Of a stretch of 25,241 nt of DNA, positions 4,584 to 24,658 are shown piece by piece; within the stretch, counting starts at the first letter, position 1, and each line of letters begins with the position of its first letter. The position numbers and the translations under genes are program-made. Location of the stretch: positions 1-25,241 of IMG/VR virus record IMGVR_UViG_3300035228_000179. One strand, given 5' to 3'. Origin of the DNA: a virus. Below the pieces are notes generated by a model. It was given only the letters and a program-made list of their open reading frames with translations. It was not told the origin of the DNA and made no database searches.

Positions 4584-5766
4584 TGTAAAACATAATGATG
4601 CCTTCTCCCAGGCACTGATCGAATCTTATGGTAAATGGGTAGGCGGCGCTGGATTTGGTTGGCATCTTAATGAAGATGGTATTCCAACACCAGAGAAAAA
4701 AGATTTAGGAGCTCCTGGTCCTGCTGGTGGTACTGATGCATCTACTTCTATCCCTGACCTTTCTGGTAAGGAAGAGAAAGAGTGTGATGACTTCTCCCAG
4801 AAGGATCCTAAAACAAACGCTGCTCCCCCTGATCCTGCTGCTAACCTGCGTACAGGTCAGGGTATGAAGTATTCTGTTGGAGCACAGATCAAAGATACTA
4901 CTAAAGTTGTTGCTCGTGAAGAGACTGAAGGGAAAAAGAAGTGTCCCGAATGTGGTGGAAAAGGTTGCTCTCACTGTGGAGACACAGGAGTTCACAAAAT
5001 GAAGAAGGAGGATGTTGATATCCTCGATGAAAAGAAAGGTCTTTACGCTAACATCCTTGCTAAAAAGAAGCGTGGAGAAGCACCTGCAAAGAAAGGTAGT
5101 AAGGACTATCCTGCTGCTGATGCCTTCGCTAAATCTGCAAAGACTGCAAAGAAAGAAGAAGTATCGTTTGAGTTAGGTGGCGAGACTTATATCTTCGAGA
5201 GAGAAGTAATCGAAGAAGGTAGTATGAAGGCAGCACGTAAGAACGTTGGTGCTTCTACTTGCTGGAAGGGTTACAAAGCATCCGGAACCAAGATGAAGGG
5301 TGGTAAGTCTGTTCCTAACTGTGTCAAAGAATACTTTGAAAAGGATCCCAAGACAGGTAAGATGGTCAAGAAGCACAACTGTGCAAAGAAAGTTAAGAAA
5401 GAAGGTCTTGAGTATTCTGTAGTTTCTGGTGAGCATACTATGCTCGAAGATGGAACTGTAACTCACTACGATATTATGAGAGAGAATACGATTCTCCACA
5501 ATGTTCCTGTCAACGAACTTGAGATCATGATCAGTGAAGTTCATGAGCACGTTGTAAACGATGACAAGAACAGAGAAGTTCTTGGTGAAAAGAAACTTGA
5601 TCCAGTTGGTAAGGCAGATGCTGATATTGACAACGATGGTGATGTAGATAAGTCAGACAAGTATCTACATGCTCGTCGTAAAAAAGTTACTAAACTGATT
5701 AACACCAAGAAGAAAATGAAGGAGCAGGCAGAACTTCAGAAGGAGATTGAAGAAGAAAAAAAGTAA
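4558..5766 (+). CDS. Late protein with zinc-finger-like and EF-hand-like motifs; zero-frame product of a frameshift pair
   Basis: 402 residues, very hydrophilic and lysine/glutamate-rich, probably modular and partly disordered. Visible parts: an N-terminal FSQALIESYGKWVGG helix; a proline/glycine-rich linker; a zinc-binding knuckle CPECGGKGCSHC (C129, C132, C137, C140) like a DnaJ repeat; a lysine-rich segment from EKKGLYANILAKKK to DYPAADAF; a cysteine-containing region 230-275; and near the end a DxDxDG EF-hand-type loop (D356, D358, D360, D362, D364, D367). Similar modules recur in cyanophage structural proteins, so a virion or assembly role is inferred. A late promoter motif precedes it. 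The last codons AAA AAG TAA form a slippery site (5757-5763) with a stem-loop behind it, so a longer 443-residue form is predicted. Confidence 0.85.
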   Translation: MERQKPVNSVKHNDAFSQALIESYGKWVGGAGFGWHLNEDGIPTPEKKDLGAPGPAGGTDASTSIPDLSGKEEKECDDFSQKDPKTNAAPPDPAANLRTGQGMKYSVGAQIKDTTKVVAREETEGKKKCPECGGKGCSHCGDTGVHKMKKEDVDILDEKKGLYANILAKKKRGEAPAKKGSKDYPAADAFAKSAKTAKKEEVSFELGGETYIFEREVIEEGSMKAARKNVGASTCWKGYKASGTKMKGGKSVPNCVKEYFEKDPKTGKMVKKHNCAKKVKKEGLEYSVVSGEHTMLEDGTVTHYDIMRENTILHNVPVNELEIMISEVHEHVVNDDKNREVLGEKKLDPVGKADADIDNDGDVDKSDKYLHARRKKVTKLINTKKKMKEQAELQKEIEEEKK

Positions 5767-19134: not shown

Positions 19135-19339
19135 TGATTGGCGATACAGTGACGAACGTATGGAGATGAGACAAAAAGTTTATGGTCTCCTCCTGACAAA
19201 ATTTGGTTCTGCCCTTGACGACAATGGAGAACCTATGTATACTATGGACAGCATCACACAATGCTCTCACGACTGGGTGTCCCAAGGCAATGTAAGGACA
19301 GATGGTATAGTGGCATATTTTAAAGCATACTACGCTTGA
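19127..19339 (+). CDS. Small hypothetical protein
   Basis: 70 residues from ATG 19127 (MDNDWRYSDERMEMRQKVYG). A start at 19067 in the same frame is less likely because it would overlap the upstream gene by 68 bases and adds unlike sequence. Helical, acidic, ending VAYFKAYYA. The stop TGA (19337-19339) lies inside the -35 hexamer TTGACA of the RNA-cluster promoter. Function unknown. Confidence 0.68.
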   Translation: MDNDWRYSDERMEMRQKVYGLLLTKFGSALDDNGEPMYTMDSITQCSHDWVSQGNVRTDGIVAYFKAYYA

Positions 19340-19364
19340 CATTACCTCATCACTGTGCTACTAT
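19336..19364 (+). promoter_or_regulatory. Sigma70-type promoter of the tmRNA/tRNA cluster
   Basis: TTGACA (19336-19341), 17-base spacer, TACTAT (19359-19364). The predicted start near 19371 coincides with the expected 5' end of the tmRNA acceptor piece. The -35 box contains the stop codon of the upstream gene. Confidence 0.7.
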
Positions 19365-19370
19365 ATACAG

Positions 19371-19429
19371 TGTTCAAGAGGTTGCAAAGTCTGTTGTTCT
19401 GGACAGGGGTTCGATTCCCCTCACTTCCA
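19371..19429 (+). ncRNA. ssrA: tmRNA acceptor piece of a permuted two-piece tmRNA
   Basis: This ~59-base RNA supplies the T arm and the 3' acceptor strand. AGGGG (19405-19409) pairs with CCCCT (19417-19421) around TTCGATT. CACTTCC (19422-19428) and A19429 then form the 3' end. CACTTCC pairs over all seven positions with GGGGGTG at the start of the coding piece (19518-19524), and the third pair is G-U, the alanine identity mark; A73 also fits alanine. GGAC sits just before the T arm, as in E. coli tmRNA. TTGTTCT (19394-19400) can pair with GGAACAA (19564-19570) of the coding piece as helix 2. CCA is not encoded. There is no D arm or anticodon arm here, so it is not a tRNA. The 5' end is set by the promoter and is approximate. 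Confidence 0.85.
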
Positions 19430-19431
19430 TC

Positions 19432-19513
19432 GGGTAGGTGTCCGAGTGGTTAAAGGAGACGGACTGTAAATCCGTTAGCTATGCTTACGTTGGTTCAAAT
19501 CCAACTCTACCCA
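19432..19513 (+). tRNA. tRNA-Tyr(GUA), lying between the two tmRNA pieces
   Basis: Acceptor GGGTAGG (19432-19438) pairs with TCTACCC (19506-19512), discriminator A19513. Anticodon stem ACGGA/TCCGT encloses CTGTAAA with anticodon GTA. It has the long variable arm typical of bacterial tRNA-Tyr, and T arm GTTGG/CCAAC. CCA not encoded. Only two bases separate it from the acceptor piece and four from the coding piece, so its own processing by RNase P and a 3' nuclease would help free both tmRNA parts. Confidence 0.95.
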
Positions 19514-19517
19514 CTCT

Positions 19518-19655
19518 GGGGGTGCCATGGTTTCGACAGGGCAAAAAGGTTGTAATTGTTGACGGAACAAAACCCTAGATGCAAAAACATCTCATACTGC
19601 TGCGAATAATATCGTAGCATTCTCCCGCAGCACCGTTGCTGCCTAAATGGGAGAT
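19518..19655 (+). ncRNA. ssrA: tmRNA coding piece with tag reading frame
   Basis: The piece starts GGGGGTG, the 5' acceptor strand, followed by the tmRNA-conserved TGGTTTCGACAGGG. The tag frame reads GCG AAT AAT ATC GTA GCA ... GCC TAA (19602-19646) and encodes ANNIVAFSRSTVAA. The opening ANNIV and the FSR segment are hallmarks of cyanobacterial tmRNA tags, and the end VAA resembles the hydrophobic protease-recognition tail. GCT at 19599 just before could serve as the resume codon instead. TCTCCC (19621-19626) with GGGAGA (19649-19654), and GCAGC (19627-19631) with GCTGC (19638-19642), form the helix around the stop codon. It rescues stalled ribosomes by trans-translation, charged with alanine through the acceptor piece. 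The 3' end is approximate. Confidence 0.88.
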
Positions 19656-19714
19656 GGGGGATAGGTTATCCTTCTAATCCAATAACTCTTGGGGGTGCAA
19701 TGCCCCTTCTTTAT
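19656..19714 (+). other. Structured spacer after the tmRNA coding piece
   Basis: GGATA/TATCC around GGT (19659-19671) forms a small hairpin, and GTTAT (19665-19669) can instead pair with ATAAC (19682-19686), so a pseudoknot is possible. GGGGGTGCAATGCCCC follows, a G/C hairpin with a TTCTTT end. It may be the 3' end or processing region of the coding RNA or a weak terminator. No gene. Confidence 0.4.
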
Positions 19715-19788
19715 GGGCAAGTAGCTCAGATGGATAGAGCCACGCACTTCTAATGCGTTGGTCGGGGGTTCGAGTCCCTCCTTGCCTG
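19715..19788 (+). tRNA. tRNA-Arg(UCU)
   Basis: Acceptor GGGCAAG (19715-19721) pairs with CTTGCCT (19781-19787), one G-U pair. D arm GCTC/GAGC, anticodon stem ACGCA/TGCGT with loop CTTCTAA (anticodon TCT), T arm GGGGG/CCCTC with TTCGAGT. Discriminator G19788; CCA not encoded. Confidence 0.95.
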
Positions 19789-22084: not shown

Positions 22085-22163
22085 ACTCTAAACTTATCCT
22101 GGTGGAGCTGGGTAGATTCATCTGCTGGTCCAGTCTCGGACAGACTATAAACCTGCCCTGGTG
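22083..22163 (+). repeat. Direct repeat pair in non-coding DNA
   Basis: AGACTCTAAACTTATCCTGG-TG (22083-22104) and AGACTATAAACCTGCCCTGG-TG (22142-22163) match at 18 of 22 bases, 59 bases apart. The first copy overlaps the end of the upstream gene. Confidence 0.7.
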
Positions 22164-22247
22164 CGGGTGCTTGCTACCGCCTGGTTTCTTGTTTCCAGTT
22201 AAAGAACAAGTGGCGTGCATGTGCTCCGGGGTGTGACAACCCCAACT
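22085..22247 (+). other. Non-coding region before tRNA-Gly, possibly a structured RNA
   Basis: No convincing reading frame. It holds most of the direct repeat pair and several possible stems: GTCC/GGAC around AGTCTC near 22128-22141, GCGG/CCGC around 22163-22180, CTTGTT/AACAAG near 22188-22210, and GGGGT/ACCCC near 22229-22244. The last stem lies just before tRNA-Gly. A processed small RNA is possible but not shown. Confidence 0.45.
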
Positions 22248-22318
22248 GCGGGATTAGTTTAGAGGCAAAACTAAAGGTTTCCAACCTTTCGTCATCGGTT
22301 CGATTCCGATATCCCGCT
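22248..22318 (+). tRNA. tRNA-Gly(UCC)
   Basis: Acceptor GCGGGAT (22248-22254) pairs with ATCCCGC (22311-22317), discriminator T. Anticodon stem AAAGG/CCTTT with loop TTTCCAA (anticodon TCC); T arm ATCGG/CCGAT with TTCGATT. CCA not encoded. Confidence 0.95.
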
Positions 22319-24499: not shown

Positions 24500-24658
24500 A
24501 TCGGTTAGTTAAGGAATCAACATATTTCTTAACAGTTCGTAACACTCCTCAAACCAAGACCTATAGGGTGTATAAACACGTCTTTCATACCTCTGCCTAG
24601 GGCGCAGAGGAATAGTAAAACCATCATCTCCCTGATGATCTTACTTTTTTTCAAAACA
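24500..24658 (+). promoter_or_regulatory. psbA 5' leader with three hairpins and a late-like motif
   Basis: No gene. GTTAAGGAAT (24508-24517) pairs with ATTTCTTAAC (24524-24533); CCTCTGC pairs with GCAGAGG (around 24590-24610); ATCATC pairs with GATGAT (around 24623-24639), followed by CTTACTTTTTTT, resembling an attenuator. TATAAACA (24571-24578) is one base from the late consensus. No Shine-Dalgarno precedes the psbA ATG (TTTTTTTCAAAACA). Confidence 0.55.

Follow-up and report, generated by a model that had tools for sequence, protein, structure and literature searches.

A complete tRNA-Tyr(GUA) fills the IVS, the spacer between the two halves, of a circularly permuted, cyanobacterial-type two-piece tmRNA gene in the window, the whole 25,241-nt stretch of viral DNA analyzed here. 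The record, a virus contig of 25 kb, best matches the T4-like cyanophages S-CAM3 (64% of the query covered) and S-CAM1 (59%). The annotated features include genes for ribonucleotide reductase, DNA primase, and transaldolase. The best explanation of the locus, to which we assign a probability of about 0.8, is that a host-type two-piece tmRNA of a cyanophage acquired a functional phage tRNA-Tyr in its short excised spacer, and that maturation of the tRNA also cuts the tmRNA. The parts of the locus are as follows.

19336 to 19364, plus strand: sigma70-like promoter TTGACA-17-TACTAT with an extended -10 TGC, likely driving the tmRNA/tRNA-Tyr transcript
19371 to 19429, plus strand: 3′ half of the tmRNA, the acceptor piece, with T arm, CACTTCC, and discriminator A73, CCA not being encoded (direct reading, ARAGORN, cmscan; 19371 is an approximate start)
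19430 to 19517, plus strand: IVS of 88 nt, composed of TC, the tRNA-Tyr, and CTCT
19432 to 19513, plus strand: complete nested tRNA-Tyr (GUA) (ARAGORN, RF00005, covariation)
19518 to 19706, plus strand: 5′ half of the tmRNA, the coding piece, with GGGGGTG acceptor strand, TTTCGAC loop, tag, and 3′ hairpin (cmscan)
19602 to 19646, plus strand: tag reading frame, ANNIVAFSRSTVAA followed by a stop, with residues at 19602–19643 and TAA at 19644–19646
19691 to 19714, plus strand: terminal tmRNA hairpin (the hairpin of the RF01851 model), then a T-rich tail; possible intrinsic terminator

In the window, cmscan matched cyano_tmRNA (RF01851) at 19355–19706 (111.4 bits, E = 1e-29, gathering threshold 70) and tmRNA_permuted (RF04321) at 19380–19646 (87.1 bits, E = 9.8e-16, gathering threshold 47). 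ARAGORN called a permuted tmRNA (tmRNA*) at 19340–19737 enclosing a tRNA-Tyr(gta) at 19432–19514. The nested tRNA was missing from the whole-window cmscan table because only the best of overlapping same-clan matches is kept. When the IVS alone was compared with RF00005, a full-length tRNA was obtained at 19432–19513 (59.6 bits, E = 3.5e-13). This tRNA has a full cloverleaf, a GUA anticodon, and a long variable arm, and is set off from the tmRNA halves by 2 nt (TC) on its 5′ side and 4 nt (CTCT) on its 3′ side. By direct reading, the tmRNA acceptor stem is paired at 7 of 7 positions across the split and carries G3-U70 and A73. An earlier note on this DNA had described the permuted order, the two halves, the position of the tRNA-Tyr with two and four bases to spare, and the seven-position pairing with G3-U70 and A73. 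Direct reading, ARAGORN, and cmscan confirmed the layout, direct reading confirmed the pairing, and a second wobble, G4-U69, which had not been mentioned, was also present. The two software checks proposed in that note gave RF01851 and RF04321 matches far above their gathering thresholds and, in the permuted mode of ARAGORN, a tmRNA* call with the tRNA-Tyr inside. The tmRNA lies where the note had placed it (19371–19655), but that 3′ limit was short, as the gene runs to about 19706.

The tag had been claimed to open with the ANNIV of cyanobacterial tags, and ANNIVAFSRSTVAA at 19602–19643 agrees with this. Its frame has a resume Ala, an AA end, and a stop. ARAGORN proposed a longer tag, AKTSHTAANNIV..., which is probably a start-codon guess, since an identical ...GCGAAYAAYATCGT context is found in host genes. 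Compared with the host tmRNAs of marine Synechococcus and Prochlorococcus (RF01851/RF04321), the gene order, tRNA-like domain, 7-bp split acceptor stem, G3-U70, A73, and ANNIV...AA tag are shared. The IVS differs, being 88 nt and tRNA-filled in the window and 5–29 nt without a tRNA in the hosts, and the window tag lacks the host QAAPVAA/QTAPVAA ending. Many cyanophage tags (L013, L016–L018, L020–L023, and others) end in ATA, VTA, VPA, or VAV, whereas host tags end in VAA. Some cyanophage tags are at least 24 residues long; unusual ends or lengths might alter recognition by host proteases. A circularly permuted tRNA gene was rejected as an identification, the nested tRNA being colinear and the permuted RNA being a tmRNA with a tag. 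The permuted tRNA genes of red algae and archaea (PMC3978253) share the placement of the 3′ half upstream of the 5′ half, but their outer ends are ligated into a one-piece tRNA via a circular intermediate, and their IVS is 1–74 nt, with no nested tRNA reported.

Flanking signals were examined for the transcript that would join the three RNAs. The promoter-like element upstream has 10 of 12 consensus matches, and the regional count of such elements was no higher than in shuffles. The same element, its distance unchanged, is present in S-CAM1, S-CAM3, AG-345-P14, and close relatives, and a TTGACN-TANNNT match was found in 23 of 67 phage loci compared with 85 of 3500 random windows. The intrinsic terminator search found 1, with 1.1 expected by chance. 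Elsewhere in the window are a tRNA-Ser (997–1083), a tRNA-Gly (22248–22318), a wcaG RNA motif (22130–22224, 67 bits), and a PhotoRC-II RNA motif (24530–24623, 72 bits).

Judged from aligned homologues, both RNAs are kept folded by compensatory changes. Among four distinct tRNA-Tyr homologues, five pairs carry changes in both partners and 96.9% of cells are paired, a level reached by 0 of 500 shuffles and lost when the partners were slid. In the tmRNA, the 7 acceptor pairs, G3-U70, and A73 were kept in 15 of 15 tRNA-containing phage loci. Pair 5:68, left free in the search pattern, occurs as G-C, A-U, C-G, and U-A over phages and hosts and is always paired; tRNA-bearing loci have G-C or A-U (A-U in two), and C-G and U-A occur in short-IVS phages and hosts. 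Because this covariation includes tRNA-bearing genes, the tmRNA halves keep pairing across the inserted tRNA. The minimum-energy fold likewise nests the tRNA inside the tmRNA acceptor stem, with a fold energy for the region no better than that of shuffles (z = −0.93).

The closest relatives of the window indicate what was added. S-CAM1 and S-CAM3 carry the same tmRNA and tag, followed downstream by tRNA-Arg/tRNA-Val as in the window, and their IVS is only 5 nt (CTCAT and TTCTT, respectively). A 5-nt IVS without a tRNA was also present in AG-345-P14 and Sf-FS3, and the permuted tmRNA of S-SSM7 aligns to tRNA-bearing relatives with the tRNA part absent. Since its nearest relatives have this five-base IVS, the window differs from them by a tRNA placed into that gap. 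Short IVS were found in 57 phage loci, at 4–9 nt save one of 29 nt. In 117 Prochlorococcus and Synechococcus genes, the host IVS was 5–29 nt without a tRNA, in a scan that covered gaps of up to 33 nt. An exact-pattern scan of 386 cyanobacterial genomes found no tmRNA with a 72–102 nt gap, and an exact two-gap pattern, run on 84,980 prokaryotic genomes, found no tmRNA whose IVS contains a T-arm motif. The covariance search gave RF04321 matches in 260 of 300 host-family genomes, with spans of at most 228 nt among the matches listed, compared with 267 nt in the window. A host-genome origin of the arrangement was rejected on the exact-pattern counts (0/386 and 0/84,980), which mean "not found by scans", as rare variants could escape any of the host scans other than the covariance search.

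On viral contigs, the arrangement recurs. The earlier note had proposed looking for the same order in other cyanophages, and two IMG/VR pattern scans, read with ARAGORN and a script, yielded another 14 permuted tmRNAs of cyano type whose IVS holds a complete tRNA. The nested tRNA is tRNA-Tyr in L012, L014, L015, L018, L023, and L024, one kind of tRNA-Asn in L008, L013, L016, L017, L020, L021, and L022, and a second, different tRNA-Asn in L097; the L008 and L024 sequences end shortly after the tag half begins. The spacing from tRNA to halves is tight and nearly constant among these loci, and their tmRNAs often sit in tRNA arrays. Phage content on the contigs includes phage-type psbA, purC, and purN (L097), a minor coat protein plus a Peptidase_S74-domain protein resembling a tail fibre (L020), and a phage tail fibre (L023). 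All tRNA-in-IVS cases come from metagenomic contigs, and blastn with four tRNA-bearing tmRNAs as queries returned no isolate phage with the arrangement. Identical tRNA-in-IVS junctions in other contigs (L012, L015, L024) rule out an assembly artefact, and chance juxtaposition was rejected, as several contigs share both junctions and spacing. It is therefore very improbable that the locus has decayed, or was assembled as a chimera, and makes neither RNA: the same junctions occur in several contigs, short-IVS isolates share the halves, the tag frame is intact, and the stems are paired with compensatory changes.

The histories of the tRNA and the tmRNA are discordant. On trees of the mature halves, tRNA-bearing and tRNA-free tmRNAs interleave, requiring 3 changes for Tyr and 5 for Asn; the alignment is short (about 200 columns), making single branches unreliable, and the counts do not separate gain from loss. 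A single vertically inherited insertion was rejected by the AU test for Tyr (p = 0.0003) and for Asn (p = 0.00096 without L097; p = 3e-10 for all Asn). Between the window and L018, identity is 67.8% in the tmRNA halves and 96.6% in the IVS, while between L018 and L023 it is 99.0% in the halves and 91.1% in the IVS. This mismatch indicates that the tRNA moved, or was converted, independently of the tmRNA. Separate viral lineages have thus repeatedly placed tRNAs in the tmRNA IVS, and the arrangement is recurrent and phage-associated. The same data bear on whether the position itself is of any benefit. The IVS could be a neutral landing site at which tRNA cassettes recombine and are tolerated because the spacer is removed anyway, the nesting not being selected. 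The frequent gain and loss (3 and 5 changes), the disagreement between tRNA and tmRNA histories, and the frequent location of these tmRNAs in the tRNA arrays of tRNA-rich cyanophage regions would all fit, and phages may simply carry more mobile tRNAs. However, the repeated occurrence of different tRNAs at one exact spot with tight spacers, together with none found in 386 cyanobacterial genomes, suggests something beyond drift. We give the neutral site somewhat less than even odds; it is compatible with our best explanation and differs only in denying a benefit of position.

We propose the following route for a functional tRNA passenger. The upstream promoter would produce a single transcript of 3′ half, tRNA-Tyr, and tag half, whose tmRNA acceptor stem would close around the tRNA cloverleaf in the precursor fold. 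Such ends in tRNA arrays are substrates of RNase P and RNase Z, and the ordinary activity of these enzymes would therefore free the tRNA and separate the tmRNA halves. The earlier note had likewise proposed that both tmRNA pieces could be released by processing of one tRNA, an idea with which the anatomy agrees. In this way the ends of the tRNA and the tmRNA would be matured by the host's RNase P and RNase Z (or exonucleases) to give three RNAs. The freed tRNA-Tyr would serve decoding; the window is a 25 kb fragment, and further tRNA-Tyr copies elsewhere in the phage are possible. The two tmRNA pieces would pair and, once charged by host AlaRS, enter trans-translation with SmpB, whose supply by the host is assumed. 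The tRNA would be a mobile passenger that phages gain, lose, and exchange, and its processing may aid separation of the halves without being essential. Close relatives with a 5-nt IVS and no tRNA indicate that the tRNA is not required for that separation.

Permuted tmRNAs outside the cyanobacterial type raise another reading of the nested element. An IMG/VR scan gave 21 such genes with a T-arm motif in an 83–100 nt IVS (L089–L096, L098–L110), mostly beta-type; those loci that were scanned score with beta_tmRNA or tmRNA_permuted. All 21 are on viral contigs, some of which may not be phage. ARAGORN called no complete tRNA in the IVS of these 21 loci. Two loci were scored with RF00005: the L106 IVS, with D and T arms within an extended stem, reached 44.8 bits, and the L091 IVS 25.7 bits, below the gathering score. 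Long closing stems appeared in the folds of four non-cyano IVS. A decayed tRNA in L106 is well supported, and the remaining elements may be decayed tRNAs as well. These loci would suit a nested tRNA that is mainly a processing module, its cloverleaf recruiting RNase P and RNase Z to open a tight acceptor loop, with decoding secondary or absent. The recurrence of tRNAs and tRNA-like elements at the IVS on viral contigs, and the failure of the scans to find them there in prokaryotic genomes, point the same way. Yet a short IVS without any nested tRNA evidently suffices in 57 phage and 117 host genes, and the cyano-type elements retain an intact anticodon arm that compensatory changes maintain, as would suit a tRNA used in decoding. 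We consider a mainly processing role unlikely, at perhaps one chance in a few; it is the main rival of greater novelty, and the functional tRNA passenger is favoured. A broader version is similarly doubtful, in which nested tRNAs, or elements derived from them, would serve phages time and again as self-excising spacers of split RNA genes: cleavage of one transcript by host tRNA maturation enzymes would yield a decoding tRNA and an assembled two-piece tmRNA in fixed ratio, with decay of the tRNA to a pure processing element in beta-type phages.

Published two-piece tmRNAs include some from marine phages, one of them a cyanophage (PMC9004378). The methylophage Melnitz tmRNA described there is likewise a permuted tmRNA of a marine phage, but it is of alphaproteobacterial type and linked to a glutamine riboswitch, with no nested tRNA reported. 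The earlier note knew of no published case with a tRNA inside. One precedent exists, a permuted tmRNA with an intact tRNA-Ala in the IVS from GCA-2688965 sp002688965.2, a nominally archaeal MAG, which was called unique (2025, PMC11915505). Compared by description, it shares with the window an intact tRNA gene in the IVS of a permuted tmRNA, and differs in being a single, possibly misbinned MAG, in carrying tRNA-Ala, and in not being reported as phage. For phage tmRNAs the note's statement stands, as a text search, with subscription journals largely outside its coverage, found no paper on nested tRNAs. In the pipeline of PMC11915505, a tmRNA call that overlapped a strong tRNA was retained only if the gene was permuted and gave a strong hit. 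Rejection of this kind may add to the scarcity of such genes, and annotation pipelines can conceal them by discarding any tmRNA call that a tRNA overlaps. Here one gene is nested in the portion excised from another, split RNA gene, an arrangement that arises repeatedly on viral contigs and for which one published cellular case was found. It offers a naturally occurring test case for the separation of a two-piece tmRNA by host RNase P and RNase Z, and would link the tRNAs carried by phages to ribosome rescue through a single transcript.

Longer IVS of 103–133 and 150–180 nt held structured or other inserts, with no complete tRNA called by ARAGORN. An identical 168-nt IVS lies in a divergent permuted tmRNA (RF04321, 85 bits) in L238 (about 5323–5490), L239, and L241; it has no Rfam match of its own, and its fold is no better than shuffles. 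L233 and L235 share an identical 131-nt IVS with differing tag halves, and this IVS contains an ORF starting MQAKPKLRRILFVCDNIQYG.
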